From the IMG/VR virus record IMGVR_UViG_3300008050_000027, positions 29,670-93,669 of that record: 64,000 nt of DNA; one strand, 5' to 3'. The DNA is from a virus. The notes under the pieces are model-generated. The model was not told the origin of the DNA, searched no databases, and was given only the letters and a program-made list of their open reading frames with translations. Positions 49,327 to 63,343 of the stretch are shown here, one piece after another; the first letter of the stretch is position 1; each line of letters starts with the position of its first letter. A program made the position numbers and the translations under genes.

Positions 49327-52300
49327 TTATGAATCAGACTCGTTTTCGAAATCACTTAAGTCAATTTCGAAAATCGGATCGTTAATTACAATGTCATCTA
49401 CATTAAGATACTCTGTTAACATTTCCCGTGGCATTTTCATTTCTTTCTTAATACTATCTATATGCTTGCCAAGTGAAGTTAAAATAACTCTCATTTCATA
49501 TGACATATTTGATGTCTTATTTTCTGCAAGAAGCAAAGAGTCATCGTTTAAAATTGCATCAGAGAGTGAACCACTAAATGGACTACCACGAAAAAACTTT
49601 AAATCGTTAGGATCACCATCAGGCTTTACTATAGAACTAAAATCTGGCATGTGCGTTTTTGTGGGACCGTGTGTTCTGCGACGCTTCCTATTATAACCAT
49701 ATCTCGATAGTTGATCAGATTGCTTCACAGACTTTTTGCGCTTCCTAGGTTTATCATCATCTTCACTTCCATCATCCATTAGCGCTTGGTGAAGTGAGAT
49801 ATCCTCATCGTCGTTTGGATCATCATCAGAAACGATTAATCTCTTTCCGTGATCTTCGCCTGCGAATAAGTCTTCTTCTCCAGCGCCAGAATCTCCGCTA
49901 TCGTCGTCAATGTCAAGGTCTTCGCCACCGCCCCCGTCATCACCCGCTAGACCATCTGGAAGATCGCCGTCGCCGTCTTCACCTTCATATCCGCCACCGA
50001 GCCCGCCGCCGCCAAGAGCGCCGCCACCCCCTCCGCCCATGGGTGAATTATCCTCAAGTTCTTCTGACTCAAGTTTTAAGTCAAGCACTCTATCTTTGAA
50101 TCTGCCCTTCTCAATCAGCTCAATCTCGTCATCTGATAAGCTTAATACTTCTTTTTGGATATATGATCTGTCAAGAAGGCCTTCTGGAATTGAACCTGCA
50201 ATTTCGAATTTAGTTCTAAATAACTCTAATTTTTGTTGCTGGGCGACCGTAGAGGGGTTCGATAGCATTAGCGAAAAATCTGATAGATCTTCGCCCTCAT
50301 ATCCATGTGTATATAGATGGATTTGAGCTATCTTCTCCAATTCTGAAATTAGGACGCGTTGAATCTTACTAATTGTTCTACTAAACCTGATGTCTTCCTG
50401 TGCAAGTGTTGCCTTACTGGATAAACTCTCGTCATACCCCAAATATGCTTTGGGAACTTTTAGAGCAGAAAACAGCTTTCTTTGAATGTACTCTACATCA
50501 GCGATGTCAGATACGTGTTGTCCACCAGCCAAAGTATCAATCTTCGTTCCAGTTTCGCCACCACGAACAGGGATGAAGTAATCTTCGTCCACAGACAATG
50601 GGTTATACCTAAGATCAACCCTACCCGATGATTTATCGACGACTTGAGACCTTTTTAGCTTAGTTTGGGCGGCTTCCATGTAGTTAGGAATATCCTCAGT
50701 AGGTACCGTTCCGACATCAATGTAAAAAACACGCCTTTCTGGTGATCTGACAACCCTATAAACAAGCATTGCATCTTCAATAAGGATTAATTGCCGCCAA
50801 ATCCTTCTTGCACTTTCTAAGACGGACGACCCATATGGCAAGAAGGCATCATTACCGACCATTCTGAAATGTGATACCTGCCAGGCGTCAAGTATTTGGT
50901 TACCTTGTGTAACCCACCTAAATCTTACAGCAAGGGGCTCTTCTGGATCATACCCTTCCTCACGCTCGACTTCATTTACAGGCATGGGAAACACATTGAC
51001 TACACCAAGCTCAGGGTGTACATCATTGAATAAGAACATATCACCATATTTGCAAAGATTTCTAGTCCAGGCTGTCAGGTTATGGTCAACATTAATAATA
51101 TCAAGAAATAACTCATCAAGAAGCTGCTTTATTTTAGGGTTCTCAGAAAAAATGTGGAGTGATGAATCCTTCTCATTTACGGCAGTCGTTTCCTCAGAAA
51201 AGATGTCAAGTGCACTACAAATCTCAGGTGTATTATGCGAAATGACCGTATCAGTGGCGAAATTCTTATACCCGTCAACAGTCAAGTCATACAGGGGAAT
51301 TTCTCCATAATACTCTACAGAAACAACTTTATGATTTGCGTAATTTTCTCTAAAATCAGTAAAGTTTTTGTAACCGTTGTTTTTTAGCCTGTTTTTAACT
51401 TTAGCAGCCGTTGTATCTAGTTTTTCACAAAGAAGTGACAACTGCATGCCATCTTCGTATGTGTCACAAACAGACTGGAATGTTAACGATGAATCGTAGC
51501 GTGGGTTTTTACTTCCCTTATTATCCCATGAGTTATTTTTCCACCCAGGTGAGTAGGCTGCAGCAAACGTTTCGAAATTCTTAAAACCATTTTTTCGCAA
51601 TCTTCGCTTGATTACGTTCGGGTCAGTATCAAGCTTGCTGCATAAAGAATAAAGATTAAACTCAGAATTTTCGCATATTTCTAAAATTTTTCCGAAAGTG
51701 ATGTCTCGTCTTTCAGCAGGATTATTCTCCTTCATAAATTTAGAATGATTAGCTTTAAATTTGTTTATCCACTCTTGATTATCAGGTGACCACTTGTGCC
51801 CATTTAAAATCTTACGATGGTAGCGATTATGTTCGTCTGCCGTCATTATCTGTAGATTTTCTGGGTTATTATCAAATTTCGTGAAATTCTTATGATGAAC
51901 AACTTCGCCCTCTTTAAGTTGTCTGTTTGATGCCCACTCTGCTACTACTTTATGTTCACGCTGCCAACCATTCGCGATAGTATATATAAATCTATAATCG
52001 GTACCAGAATCTGTGCCTTTCCCTTCGCCATACCATGATTTACGATAAAATGGCATCATCGAATCGCCGGCACTTAAACCGTCAATTCTACAAAACGTAC
52101 CGTCACGTTTCATTAATCTATGATTTGCTGTCCCTATTATTTCCTTGCCACTATTAAATGTAACTTTCCAAGCATGATCAAATCTTGTCTGTCTAGCATG
52201 TTTTCCGAGAGCCGGTACGATACTTTTTTTCTCATGATCGTAAGCATAGACATAAAAAGTATCATCAGCGCTATACTCTTCAGATAATTGTTTTATCGTT

Positions 52301-53727
52301 TTATACCCATCTAGTGTAGCTATCTGTGTATCGCCCGCCAAACAATATTCCATTTCAGCGAAATCTGCGTACCGTGAGTTATGGCAAACTATTGAATTTG
52401 TTGCAAAATTCTCATGCCCGTCGACAGTCATATCGTAAACCGGAATTTTTTTCCAAGGAGTAACAGAGACAACTTTATGATTTCTAAAATTATCTTTCTT
52501 AAATTGCTTCCATTTTAAATCTTTTTTATCAAGAAATCGTGTAAGTGTTGCGCCGCTAATATTTAGTTGATCTGATATTTTTAAGACTGTTGGTTTATCG
52601 ATTCTCTTTCCAGTTTCAACTATTAAATCAATTGTTAATTTAGCAGTTTCACTTTTTCTTGATCGGCCTTTCCAGTATTCTGCAAAATTTCTTGAAGATT
52701 TTATTCTACCCTCAGCCCATGCGTGCTTTATTGTTTTTGAATGTTTATTTTTATTTTCTTCTACTTTATACCAATCGCTACGTGTTTTCGCACCCTTTGC
52801 AACACTCTCAGGATTATGCGATGGATTATTATTTAACCAATGATTTCGGCGCATTTCACGAATTTTTGGTTGGCGATTAACATTAGCGACACCGGCTCGT
52901 CGAGAGCCATCATCTTCATCCCAAGCTTGCTGGATCCCTGCAATCATTTTTTCGCGATGGTCGATCCATTGTTGCTTTGTATCTTGGGCATGTAACTTTA
53001 GGTGCTCTTTAGCATCCATAATTAACAAGTTGTCTGGAGTGTTATTCTCAGAATCATAATCAATATGATGAATATGTTCCTCGCCTTTCTTTACTTTTCT
53101 TTTTGTGCTCCACTCTGCAATTAATTTATGCTCAGATATCCACCCATTCCAACCAGATGGATCCATTGTATAAATGTTTTTATAACCGGTGAATTGTTTA
53201 CCATCTTTTGATGTTCCATTAAACTGCTTACGATAGAAAGGCATCATTGAGTCACCAGCTTTTAAACTGCCAGCGTCTTGATACTCCCCGCTACGTGTCA
53301 TACAAGGATGATCAGGCGTACATATAAGCTCTGTGTCATCGTCAAATTTAATTTTTACAGTGTCTTTTATACCTGACTGTCTTGGATGATGCGCGTAAGC
53401 TGGAACTATCTGTTTTTTCTCATGATCATATGAATAAACAATAAACTTTTCATCTTTAGGATATCGCTTAGCTAATTCTGCAATCGACACAAATCCCTCT
53501 TTTCCAGGAACTGGTATAAGTGTATGTCCCGCTAGACACTGTCGATCATATTGCCCATATGCATTTAATGCATTACTATATACTTGGCTGTATGATTTTT
53601 TAAATGCGGTTACCGCACTCGTTGCAGTTGGTTGTCTAAAAGAACGAACTTTTTTCTTTAATACCGGGCCGCCACGAAAAAGTTGCGTTAGCCTTTTGAA
53701 TAAATCATCTCGTCGATTTTCTGCCAT
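49327..53727 (-). CDS. 20: Portal vertex protein with two inteins (gp20-like)
   Basis: A 1466-residue precursor. Removing two inteins (residues 64-450 and 462-832) leaves a portal of about 708 residues. The joined exteins read NAYGQYDRQ, SRYADFAEMEY, TPEICSALDIFSEETTA, a near match to the T4 gp20 segment RYAEY..MEYTPEI.SALDIY.DE. Downstream portal signatures include RFRWVTQGNQILDAWQVSHF, PYGSSVLESARRIWRQLILI, EDAMLVYRVVRSPERRVFYI and DFSLMLSNPSTVAQQQKLEL. The C-terminal 200 residues carry a Gly-rich acidic linker and a basic patch (KPRKRKKSVKQ). The portal is the DNA entry ring and nucleates head assembly. It follows the terminase gene by 50 bases. Confidence 0.93.
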   Translation of the reverse strand: MAENRRDDLFKRLTQLFRGGPVLKKKVRSFRQPTATSAVTAFKKSYSQVYSNALNAYGQYDRQCLAGHTLIPVPGKEGFVSIAELAKRYPKDEKFIVYSYDHEKKQIVPAYAHHPRQSGIKDTVKIKFDDDTELICTPDHPCMTRSGEYQDAGSLKAGDSMMPFYRKQFNGTSKDGKQFTGYKNIYTMDPSGWNGWISEHKLIAEWSTKRKVKKGEEHIHHIDYDSENNTPDNLLIMDAKEHLKLHAQDTKQQWIDHREKMIAGIQQAWDEDDGSRRAGVANVNRQPKIREMRRNHWLNNNPSHNPESVAKGAKTRSDWYKVEENKNKHSKTIKHAWAEGRIKSSRNFAEYWKGRSRKSETAKLTIDLIVETGKRIDKPTVLKISDQLNISGATLTRFLDKKDLKWKQFKKDNFRNHKVVSVTPWKKIPVYDMTVDGHENFATNSIVCHNSRYADFAEMEYCLAGDTQIATLDGYKTIKQLSEEYSADDTFYVYAYDHEKKSIVPALGKHARQTRFDHAWKVTFNSGKEIIGTANHRLMKRDGTFCRIDGLSAGDSMMPFYRKSWYGEGKGTDSGTDYRFIYTIANGWQREHKVVAEWASNRQLKEGEVVHHKNFTKFDNNPENLQIMTADEHNRYHRKILNGHKWSPDNQEWINKFKANHSKFMKENNPAERRDITFGKILEICENSEFNLYSLCSKLDTDPNVIKRRLRKNGFKNFETFAAAYSPGWKNNSWDNKGSKNPRYDSSLTFQSVCDTYEDGMQLSLLCEKLDTTAAKVKNRLKNNGYKNFTDFRENYANHKVVSVEYYGEIPLYDLTVDGYKNFATDTVISHNTPEICSALDIFSEETTAVNEKDSSLHIFSENPKIKQLLDELFLDIINVDHNLTAWTRNLCKYGDMFLFNDVHPELGVVNVFPMPVNEVEREEGYDPEEPLAVRFRWVTQGNQILDAWQVSHFRMVGNDAFLPYGSSVLESARRIWRQLILIEDAMLVYRVVRSPERRVFYIDVGTVPTEDIPNYMEAAQTKLKRSQVVDKSSGRVDLRYNPLSVDEDYFIPVRGGETGTKIDTLAGGQHVSDIADVEYIQRKLFSALKVPKAYLGYDESLSSKATLAQEDIRFSRTISKIQRVLISELEKIAQIHLYTHGYEGEDLSDFSLMLSNPSTVAQQQKLELFRTKFEIAGSIPEGLLDRSYIQKEVLSLSDDEIELIEKGRFKDRVLDLKLESEELEDNSPMGGGGGGALGGGGLGGGYEGEDGDGDLPDGLAGDDGGGGEDLDIDDDSGDSGAGEEDLFAGEDHGKRLIVSDDDPNDDEDISLHQALMDDGSEDDDKPRKRKKSVKQSDQLSRYGYNRKRRRTHGPTKTHMPDFSSIVKPDGDPNDLKFFRGSPFSGSLSDAILNDDSLLLAENKTSNMSYEMRVILTSLGKHIDSIKKEMKMPREMLTEYLNVDDIVINDPIFEIDLSDFENESDS
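51232..52344 (-). mobile_element. Intein 2 in portal, with HNH endonuclease
   Basis: 371 residues (462-832). Cys1 in CLAGDTQIATLDG, block B GTANHRLM, C-terminal LYDLTVDGYKNFATDTVISH followed by Asn832 and Thr as the +1 residue. HNH region: GEVVHHKNFTKFDNNPENLQ, ADEHNRYHRK. Two helix-turn-helix-like repeats (LCSKLDTDPNVIKRRLRKNG and LCEKLDTTAAKVKNRLKNNG) follow. It is clearly related to intein 1 (shared SYDHEKK/AYDHEKK, AGDSMMPFYRK and HKVVSV segments), and lies only 11 extein residues downstream of it. Confidence 0.92.
52378..53538 (-). mobile_element. Intein 1 in portal, with HNH endonuclease
   Basis: 387 residues (64-450). Splicing signals: Cys1 in CLAGHTLIPVPG, block B CTPDHPCM with His140, and C-terminal block VYDMTVDGHENFATNSIVCH followed by Asn450 and Ser as the +1 extein residue. 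The insert carries an HNH-type nuclease: GEEHIHHIDYDSENNTPDNL then MDAKEHLKLHAQ. A helix-turn-helix segment (KPTVLKISDQLNISGATLTR) near residue 385 could read DNA. All splicing residues are present, so it should be active. Confidence 0.92.
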
Positions 53728-59597: not shown

Positions 59598-61217
59598 TCA
59601 GGCACGTGAGGCGGCCCACTTGACATCTATGTCTTCATCTTTCAAAAGTGCGAACAGAACATCATCTGGTGTGTTTTTATTGAGTCCTACACATGTCTTA
59701 ACTGAACTATTGGGATCTTTCGCAAGTACCCTTAATATATCAGGTGATATATTGGGGTTATTCGCTAAACCCCACCTAACTCCTGCGGCTTTATCTTTTA
59801 TAAGAGCTTTTAAGACATCACCCGGCGTGCGGTGGTTCATCGCCACCGCACGCCGGACATTTGCACCTGGGTCTTTTGAAAGTTCTCTTAAAGTCTCAGG
59901 GGGCATATTATTGGACGCAGCATTTTGCCTTGTCTGGTGATCGTTATCTTTTGCAAGCTCTTCCAGGGAGTCGGGAGGTGTATTTGGGTTTGATGCTATA
60001 CCACGTTTAGTCTGTTTATCTTTACTTTTCACAAGTTCTCTCAAAGTATCAACTGGTATATTTGGGTTAAGTAATGTATTGTACCGTGTAGTTTCATCAG
60101 GATCTTTCGCAAGCTCTTTTAAGGAATCAACTGGTGTATTTGGGTTTGATGCTGCGCAATGCCTAACCGTTGCATCTTTATCTTTTGCAAGTTCTCTCAA
60201 AGTATCAACGTGTACGCTTGTATTATAAGCTACATCTTGTCGAATGCGGACATCTTTGCTTTTTGACATTTTTGAATAGTGGTGGTTATTTAAAACAATA
60301 ATATAATCTTGAACGTCTTTTGTTGGCTTTAAGCCAGCAATATTCTTGAATTGATTTGTAGTTGCGACGAATGCGGGTGGTCTTAAGCCCTGAGCGAATT
60401 TTTTAAATCTTGGAACTGACGTTACTGCTTTCTTGATATCTCTTATTGCTGGGTGGACGTCATCGATTGCACGGCTCATTTCGATAGCCGCATGTATCTT
60501 GGGCCATTCATCACCAAAAGCTTCCTGGAAATCAAACTGCTGATTATTTTGGTTAACAGTCATTTCATTCGGGTGTGATGGTTGTACCTCACCGCCGATT
60601 GTTCCGATTGACCACTTCTTATTTTCGTCATGTTTATCAAGAACATAATAAAGTGATGTTGTACCTTCTAAAATATAGCTATAAAATAGATTCTCGCCCT
60701 TTGTTCTTGCAGTGCACCATGTTGTGCCCTTTCCGATTGCACAAGAAGCCTGGATGCTTCTTGGCATCAGAACAATAAAGTTGTCTGACTCATAAACTTT
60801 GTCAGCATCGCCAGATGCTGCCTTGAAGTCTATCTTAGAGTCATCAGGAAGCTCTTCAAGCTTCCTGTGTAAATCACCGGCCGTTCTATAACTATTAATG
60901 TCTGCGTCTTTTCCCTTTAGCTTCTGTCTGCTTTTGGCGCCATCAAAAGAAATAATGAGGGGCGAAATGTCTCTTAAAGGTTCTTGATTTGAACGTGAAA
61001 CACGTTCAAGCCACATAAGATATTGTCTTAGTTTGGCTTGAGGTAGAGCTTGAAGTTTTTCTAAAACTTCATCCCACTCTTCTGGAGACCTGTTAGATTT
61101 TGCTTTGACATCATCAATCGCACCTTCTGAGAGTAATTGTCTGGCTAGGTCTTTTATGCGGGCCTCTACCAGCTGATTTGAAATTATTTCCCGGAGTTCT
61201 CTAATCGTGATGAGCAT
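59598..61217 (-). CDS. Tagged LRV-repeat protein (family copy 2)
   Basis: A 539-residue protein. Residues 1-31 are the tag MLITIRELREIISNQLVEAR, IKDLARQLLSE, with Gly next (cleavage-type L-S-E/G). Then PEEWDEVLEKLQALPQAKLR, a linker (SRSNQEPLRDISPLIISFDG), and a conserved domain with IQASCAIGKGTTWCTARTKG (about 165-185) and YSYILEGTTSLYYVLDKHDE. From about 335 the protein is leucine-rich-repeat-variant (LRV) units of about 24 residues: SNPNTPVDSLKELAKDPDET, NPNIPVDTLRELVKSKDKQ and so on, seven or more. Related to the genes at 31084 and 61880. The WCTA domain is of unknown function. Confidence 0.8.
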   Translation of the reverse strand: MLITIRELREIISNQLVEARIKDLARQLLSEGAIDDVKAKSNRSPEEWDEVLEKLQALPQAKLRQYLMWLERVSRSNQEPLRDISPLIISFDGAKSRQKLKGKDADINSYRTAGDLHRKLEELPDDSKIDFKAASGDADKVYESDNFIVLMPRSIQASCAIGKGTTWCTARTKGENLFYSYILEGTTSLYYVLDKHDENKKWSIGTIGGEVQPSHPNEMTVNQNNQQFDFQEAFGDEWPKIHAAIEMSRAIDDVHPAIRDIKKAVTSVPRFKKFAQGLRPPAFVATTNQFKNIAGLKPTKDVQDYIIVLNNHHYSKMSKSKDVRIRQDVAYNTSVHVDTLRELAKDKDATVRHCAASNPNTPVDSLKELAKDPDETTRYNTLLNPNIPVDTLRELVKSKDKQTKRGIASNPNTPPDSLEELAKDNDHQTRQNAASNNMPPETLRELSKDPGANVRRAVAMNHRTPGDVLKALIKDKAAGVRWGLANNPNISPDILRVLAKDPNSSVKTCVGLNKNTPDDVLFALLKDEDIDVKWAASRA

Positions 61218-61879: not shown

Positions 61880-63343
61880 CTAATAATTATTGTCTGCAGC
61901 AAATTTCACAGAATCATTTTTATCTTTTCTAAGCATAACAACAATTTCATCTGGTGTCGAGAGATTTTCGGCGACGTTGCGCCTGACACCTGCGTTACTA
62001 CTCTTTGCTAAAATTTCGTAAATGTCAAATCCGAGGGCCGGTCGGCGTGATAGTGTGGAGGTAACAAATGGAATATCATTTGTCGCAAGTATCTTAAAAA
62101 CTTCATGCGAAGCATTTTTATTATTTAAGACAGCATACTGGATCGATTGGTTGGGACGTTTGGCAAGCATGGTGATTGTTTTCGGATCTGTAACAGTCAT
62201 TGCAGCTTGAGCTAGAAGATCTTTATCATCGCCGTCTATAAATGTCATTAATACTTGCTCGGGTGTCGAAGGGTTACGAGCAACGCCGCGACGCACAAAC
62301 CAGTTATCATCAGAAGCCAATGTAGCAAGAAGCTCTGGAGGTGTGCGAGAACTATGAGATGCTTCTTCTCGCACACCCTCATTTTCGCTTGTTGTCATCT
62401 TTGTTAAAGCCGGTATTATAATTTCGTTGGTATAATCACTAACTTCACCAGATAATTTATTACCTGCTGATTCTAATGAACTCAATAAAGCTAAAATTGC
62501 TGGGACTCGCATGCCTTTAACGAGCTTTTTAAATCTTGAGACTGACGTTACTGCTTTCTTGATATCTTTTATTGCTGGGTGCTCTTTTACTTTTTTTGAA
62601 TGCAGTGTAATAGCATTTATAATGTCTTCTTCTTCTTCTTCGAACTCAAAACTAAAATCAAAATCATCGTTATCTTCGTCAACTGTTACAGAACCATACT
62701 CAGGCTCTTGTACTTCGCCATTGACTGCCCCAATTGACCACTTTCTTTTTTTATCATGCTTGTCAAGAACATAATAAAGAATGACGCCATCATTTATTAT
62801 GTAATTGTAAAATAAGTTCTCACCTTTGGTCCTTGCTGTGCACCATGCCGTGCCGCGCCCAAGCGCGCACGAAGCATCAAGGCTTCGGGGCATCAAAACA
62901 ACAAAATTGTCTGATTCATAAACTTTGTCAGCATCGCCAGATGCTGCCTTGAAATCTATCTTAGAATCATCAGGAAGCTCTTCAAGCTTCCGATGAAGAT
63001 CCCCAGGGGTCTTATAGGCGTTAATATCTGTGTCTTTTCCCTTTAACTTCTGCCTGCTTTTAGCTTTGTCGAAAGAAATGATTAAAGGTGAAATATCTCT
63101 TAGGGGCTCTTGATTTGAACGTGAAACACGTTCAAGCCACGTGAGGTATTGTTTTAGTTTAGCTTGGGGGAGGATTTGAAGTTTCTCGAAAACTTCATCC
63201 CATTCTTCAGAATGTCTATCAGATCTTGCTTTAATGTCATCAATGGTGCCTTCTGTAAGAAGGCAATTTATTAGCTCTTTCAAGCTAGTTTCTACCAGCT
63301 GATTTGAAATTGCTTCCCGAAGTTCTCTAATCGTGATGAGCAT
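61880..63343 (-). CDS. Tagged LRV-repeat protein (family copy 3)
   Basis: A 487-residue protein. Tag: MLITIRELREAISNQLVETS then LKELINCLLTE, followed by Gly, the same length (31) and register as copies 1 and 2. The shared middle runs SEEWDEVFEKLQILPQAKLK, LRDISPLIISFDKAKSRQKL and LDASCALGRGTAWCTARTKG. It ends in fewer and more diverged LRV units (NPSTPEQVLMTFIDGDDKDL; NENLSTPDEIVVMLRKD-like). An acidic stretch FDFSFEFEEEEEDIINA is unique to this copy. The three paralogues differ mainly in their repeats, which suggests changing binding partners. Confidence 0.8.
   Translation of the reverse strand: MLITIRELREAISNQLVETSLKELINCLLTEGTIDDIKARSDRHSEEWDEVFEKLQILPQAKLKQYLTWLERVSRSNQEPLRDISPLIISFDKAKSRQKLKGKDTDINAYKTPGDLHRKLEELPDDSKIDFKAASGDADKVYESDNFVVLMPRSLDASCALGRGTAWCTARTKGENLFYNYIINDGVILYYVLDKHDKKRKWSIGAVNGEVQEPEYGSVTVDEDNDDFDFSFEFEEEEEDIINAITLHSKKVKEHPAIKDIKKAVTSVSRFKKLVKGMRVPAILALLSSLESAGNKLSGEVSDYTNEIIIPALTKMTTSENEGVREEASHSSRTPPELLATLASDDNWFVRRGVARNPSTPEQVLMTFIDGDDKDLLAQAAMTVTDPKTITMLAKRPNQSIQYAVLNNKNASHEVFKILATNDIPFVTSTLSRRPALGFDIYEILAKSSNAGVRRNVAENLSTPDEIVVMLRKDKNDSVKFAADNNY

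Follow-up and report, generated by a model that had tools for sequence, protein, structure and literature searches.

Two class 1 inteins 11 residues apart in a T4-like portal gene: one case of a portal intein hotspot

Introduction

The T4-like portal gene of an environmental phage contains two complete class 1 inteins that lie only 11 amino acids apart. This raises the question of how two such elements came to occupy nearly the same place in one gene: whether one was copied from the other, whether both arrived as a pair, or whether neighbouring sites were invaded separately. A published description of this portal intein cluster was not found in the openly accessible literature. Neighbouring inteins in one gene have been tested experimentally for MCM-a and MCM-d of haloarchaea, according to the accessible part of PMC10643990. 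Mycobacteriophages have portal inteins (PORT, six inteins, cluster C1) and TerL inteins at sites a-g, as given in the accessible part of PMC5050341. Genes with multiple inteins include the ribonucleotide reductase of Trichodesmium, with four, and the RFC gene of M. jannaschii, with three (PMC1635734).

Portal gene and its inteins

The source record is a single incomplete 93.7-kb metagenome contig. The window, which is the whole stretch of 64,000 nucleotides analysed here, comprises bases 29670-93669 of this 93,669-base IMG/VR record. The portal ORF (49327-53727, minus strand) encodes 1466 aa and has no internal stops. Its identity as a T4-like portal (gp20) is given both by the PF07230 Portal_T4 match (E 1.4e-70) and by the head-gene neighbourhood, which comprises terminase, S77 prohead protease, and Gp23 capsid genes. 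When both inteins are excised, a 708-aa portal is obtained that aligns without gaps to intein-free relatives. A match to T4 gp20, which is very weak and serves as a lead only, places the insertion region at about gp20 residues 80-100. Upstream of the head genes, two proteins with LRV (leucine-rich repeat variant) or HEAT repeats are encoded at 59598-61217 and 61880-63343 of the window, minus strand.

Table 1. Features of the portal gene, in window positions
Feature	Position	Strand	Evidence
Portal N-extein, residues 1-63 (end ...YGQYDRQ)	53539..53727	-	Alignment to intein-free portals
Intein 1 (site a), 387 aa, HINT splicing domain, HNH nuclease, and helical DNA-binding tail	52378..53538	-	Cys1, T74xxH77, HN, Ser+1; Pfam, predicted fold
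HNH core of intein 1, EHIHHIDYDSENNTPDNLLIMDAKEHLKLH	52990..53082	-	HNH_3 19.2 bits (below cut-off), motif residues, predicted beta-beta-alpha
Extein between inteins, SRYADFAEMEY, 33 bp, contains unoccupied site c (ADF/AEM)	52345..52377	-	Site c filled in relatives
Intein 2 (site b), 371 aa, HINT splicing domain, HNH nuclease, and helical modules	51232..52344	-	Cys1, T72xxH75, HN, Thr+1; Pfam, predicted fold
HNH core of intein 2, EVVHHKNFTKFDNNPENLQIMTADEHNRYH	51817..51918	-	HNH_3 28.1 bits, above cut-off
Portal C-extein (TPEICSALDIF... to stop), T4-like portal domain	49327..51231	-	PF07230

Intein 1 covers aa 64-450 and ends in VCHN, the intervening extein covers aa 451-461, and intein 2 covers aa 462-832 and ends in ISHN. 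Block B reads T74-P-D-H77 in intein 1 and T72-A-N-H75 in intein 2. Both have the features of class 1 inteins, namely Cys1, TxxH, HN with Ser or Thr at +1, and the HINT fold. Pfam Intein_splicing matches both above its cut-off (E 5e-14 and 1e-14), and the N-terminal and C-terminal NCBIfam intein models each match twice in the portal ORF. Intein_splicing and HNH_3 had no further matches anywhere else in the 93.7-kb record. The AlphaFold2 models, for which each intein was folded separately, the aligner having placed site-a fragments onto intein 2, have mean pLDDT values of 82 and 83 and include predicted ββα HNH nucleases. In Foldseek, both models match intein HINT structures of the PDB (DnaB, RecA, DnaE) with E about 5e-6. 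Chance is excluded by the E-values, by the PDB HINT matches, and by the many relatives that are empty at exactly these junctions. By sequence and predicted fold, both inteins are real and complete.

The nuclease regions differ in how well they score. The HNH_3 match (PF13392) of intein 2 exceeds the cut-off, while that of intein 1 lies below the required 24.8 bits, so that DNA cutting by intein 1 could be lost. The family-invariant HH...N...N...H residues of intein 1 are kept, and H157, H158, N166, N170, H179, and H183 are invariant across 18 relatives. The sequence-only reading had described two HNH inteins of 387 aa (Ser+1) and 371 aa (Thr+1) with all splicing residues, separated by SRYADFAEMEY. 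The intein models and residues bear out the pair, with the reservation on the intein 1 score, and the boundaries and intein-free relatives agree with the 11-residue spacing. We infer from the residues and models that both inteins splice, cut, and home.

Insertion sites in related portals

Relatives were gathered from viral contigs, using as queries the portal, each of the two inteins, and a site-a alignment; one scan of cellular genome contigs found no relatives. At the insertion region, intein-free relatives read YDRM-ARYSDF-SEMEY-TPEI without a seam, which shows that the intein junctions are exact. There are at least three sites in these 11 codons: site a before SRYADF, site c between SRYADF and SEMEY, and site b before TPEI. 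Among IMG/VR portals the occupancies none, a, b, c, a+b, a+c, and a+c+b are all found.

Among the matches listed, 60 non-redundant portals have site b only. Considering these three sites, site a alone is filled in L056, which bears another intein downstream, and in L138, and site c alone in L006. The a+b state is found in the window and in L140/L141, and the a+c state in L060, L139, and L146/L147. L143 (IMGVR_UViG_3300008255_000136) has all three inteins, with gaps of SRYSDF (6 residues) and SEMEY (5 residues). In L181, which has a portal ORF truncated at the beginning, a row of c-b-k inteins is separated by 5 and 14 residues. Some intein boundaries, in L063, L150, L181, and L006, required manual checking.

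Scanning twice with the C-terminal part of the portal, a query without bias to a, c, or b, gave 159 portals; these are top-ranked samples rather than a survey. The automatic parser found inteins in seven of them (L158, L164, L180, L181, L182, L187, L296). Site b is thus widely distributed as a target, yet only sporadically filled. The window exemplifies a portal intein hotspot and adds a variant to the already known cases of neighbouring inteins.

The residues around the sites also vary. In the site c inteins of L006, L143, L146, and L147 the last residue is Gln (MVFQ or SLQ, followed by Ser+1) rather than Asn, and the C-terminal stretch is odd. The -1 residue of site b is Ala or Ser (EMEA, EMES) in some marine portals with or without intein, and mostly Tyr or Phe elsewhere.

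Kinship of the two inteins

The intein tree, which is unrooted, comprises 81 splicing domains and 148 columns. In it, the eight site-a inteins form one clade (support 100/92), and so do the 49 site-b inteins (99/94). Intein 1 has its nearest relative in the site-a intein of L138, with 66% identity in the splicing domain, and intein 2 has its highest identity, 72%, to the site-b intein of L143. When the two window inteins are forced to be sisters, the tree is rejected (p-AU 0.004). A branch with 99/94 support separates families a and b jointly from the inteins at other portal sites, and the two families may share an older ancestor. In the HNH-region tree, which has 76 columns only, the sites are not cleanly separated.

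Compared directly, intein 1 and intein 2 have 38% amino acid identity and 53% DNA identity, and their longest common run is 15 nt. Identical codons are used at 69 of 129 shared residues, with about 57 expected from codon usage. The segments YDHEKK, GDSMMPFYRK, and HKVVSV, from which the sequence-only reading had deduced common descent, are family-wide motifs and not specific to the window pair. Its view that the two are related stands on the amino acid identity and on the joint branch of families a and b. Its further proposal, that one of the two was here derived from the other, is not supported by the tree, in which the pair are not sisters. Recent duplication or gene conversion between them is ruled out by the allelic clades, the rejected sister pair, and the DNA divergence.

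Gain, loss, and probable order of invasion

The portal tree is built from 88 exteins, and the minimum number of changes on it is 17 for site b, 5 for site a, and 3 for site c. Gain and loss of these inteins is sporadic. The sister of the window portal is L063 (100/100), in which site b is filled and site a is empty. The sister of the a+b portals L140/L141 is L064, which has b only (98/79), and the triple portal L143 is nested within a clade of a+c portals. Since the sisters of doubles are b-only singles and L143 lies inside the a+c clade, the portal tree suggests stepwise invasion of already occupied genes as the simplest reading. From this we infer the order b first, then a; alternatively, the state of L063 could reflect loss of a rather than gain of a in the window. 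Stepwise invasion agrees with haloarchaeal MCM, where double inteins were much more successful at entering alleles that already held one intein than alleles with none (PMC10643990).

Crowding and possible nuclease loss

In the automatic count, inteins shorter than 260 aa make up 7 of the 17 with a neighbour within 30 residues, 4 of the 39 with a farther neighbour, and 1 of the 40 that stand alone. This one short lone intein, the k intein of L150, really belongs to a cluster, as the filter overlooked the intein at site b next to it. A hand count of nine tight clusters found at least one short intein in seven; only the window and L139 have long inteins throughout. The short-intein counts rest on automatic boundary calls and on the best 80 matches of the intein scan, a restriction that biases them towards long inteins. 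They are suggestive of an excess of nuclease-less inteins in tight clusters.

One tentative reading is that the N-terminal segment of the portal is a contested site. Several families would target the same few dozen overlapping base pairs, occupation would mask or alter the target of the neighbour, and crowded inteins would lose their nuclease and ride on the homing of the neighbour. This is possible, though we would not expect it. If it is true, the window represents a still fully armed stage of nuclease loss.

Origin of the double state

The window very probably holds two independent, splicing-competent class 1 HNH inteins, at two of at least three adjacent sites in 11 codons, that excise themselves, spread by homing, and were acquired stepwise. 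Each intein would excise after translation by an acyl shift at Cys1, transfer to Ser+1 or Thr+1, and cyclisation of the last Asn. Excision of both would leave an intact 708-residue portal, and the 11-residue piece would serve as C-extein of intein 1 and as N-extein of intein 2. It is plausible that both splices are required before head assembly. In co-infection, each HNH nuclease would cut a portal allele without its own intein, and repair would copy the intein in. The double state would arise in steps, with site a invaded in a portal already bearing the site-b intein.

Three other explanations were weighed against stepwise invasion. Local duplication, with one intein giving rise to its neighbour by homing nearby within this phage lineage, would account for the amino acid identity, the shared motifs, and the common branch of families a and b. 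The evidence against it is that each intein is closer to allelic inteins of other phages than to its neighbour, that the sister pair is rejected, and that the DNA has diverged to the point of no common run above 15 nt; any move between a and b must therefore be ancient. As a recent event local duplication is refuted, and for this lineage it is hardly credible; an old event between families a and b is possible. Joint colonisation, with a two-intein cassette homing as a unit and one nuclease dragging its neighbour along in a long gene-conversion tract, fits the spacing, as 33 bp is far below usual gene-conversion tracts. It also accords with the composition of the nine tight clusters, of which eight have a full-length intein in at least one position and seven a shortened intein without HNH. 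It is nevertheless unlikely, given that the nearest relatives of doubles are singles, that both window nucleases look intact in sequence, and that joint homing was hindered by two active nucleases in haloarchaeal MCM (PMC10643990).

The third explanation is that the inteins are kept for their conditional splicing, which would set the timing of portal maturation and head assembly. Such splicing has precedent in some inteins, e.g. mycobacterial DnaB (accessible part of PMC6195587), and site b is found in many unrelated portals. Most portals are however intein-free, a clear intein being present in only seven of the 159 from the portal-based scans, and frequent gain and loss point to a mobile parasite and not to a needed switch. 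A role of this kind is very unlikely.

The +1 residue

At site a, the +1 residue is Ser in all eight occupied portals, compared with 14 of 89 empty marine-type portals, which mostly have Ala. Fisher's test on 8/0 against 14/75 gives 2e-6, with kinship not removed. The number of independent pairs, counted on a preceding version of the portal tree, is at most five, so that significance is unattainable for a link between Ser+1 and occupancy. Intein 1 requires Ser, Thr, or Cys at +1. At site c of the window, the would-be +1 residue is Ala (AEMEY), and the site is empty. The same type of +1 gate is present in haloarchaeal MCM, with co-conversion of Pro to Ser required there (PMC10643990); here Ala to Ser would be needed.

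Comparison with known systems

The haloarchaeal MCM-a/MCM-d pair and the window have in common two full nuclease inteins at nearby sites of a conserved gene, here two HNH inteins 33 bp apart, and sporadic gain and loss (PMC10643990). They differ in that the MCM inteins have LAGLIDADG nucleases in a helicase gene, while the window has HNH nucleases in a portal gene (PMC10643990). The MCM sites are called close in the accessible part of that paper, which gives no residue spacing; the portal sites here are 6, 5, and 11 residues apart.

Mycobacteriophages share with the window inteins in the phage portal, and their TerL, a DNA-packaging gene, has several sites (accessible part of PMC5050341). They are different phages, and that part of PMC5050341 describes no two inteins in the same portal gene. 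The Trichodesmium ribonucleotide reductase and the M. jannaschii RFC gene resemble the portals in having several non-allelic inteins per gene (PMC1635734). The portals differ in having up to five per ORF (L145, L151), in being a phage structural gene, and in having three sites in 11 codons. Five inteins exceed the highest published count found, which is the four of Trichodesmium ribonucleotide reductase in the accessible part of PMC1635734.

Neighbouring inteins have been tested experimentally in an archaeal helicase gene, and the portal family offers a natural set. It comprises, within one phage gene family, most occupancies of three sites in 33 bp, the triple included; only b+c was not seen in a gene intact to the portal start. 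With this set one can ask whether inteins compete with, assist, or block one another, how splicing proceeds when the extein is 5, 6, or 11 residues long, and at what stage homing nucleases are lost. Searches with portal and gp20 markers can miss or misread intein-bearing genes. Closely packed inteins may also be of use in protein engineering.

Inteins at other portal sites

L145 and L151 each have their five inteins in one portal ORF of 2484 aa. The huge phages LR756508 (L052) and LR756511 (L053) have T4-like portals whose inteins are inserted at positions corresponding to sites k, h, i, and f. Their sites a, c, and b are all empty, and their inteins are only distantly related to those of the window. 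The inteins at portal sites d and e (L068, L077, L078, L100, L107, L142, L145) mostly have Pro as the first residue and a Cys in the C-terminal block (DVYCMTV). This combination is presumably that of class 3 inteins, which lack the N-terminal nucleophile.
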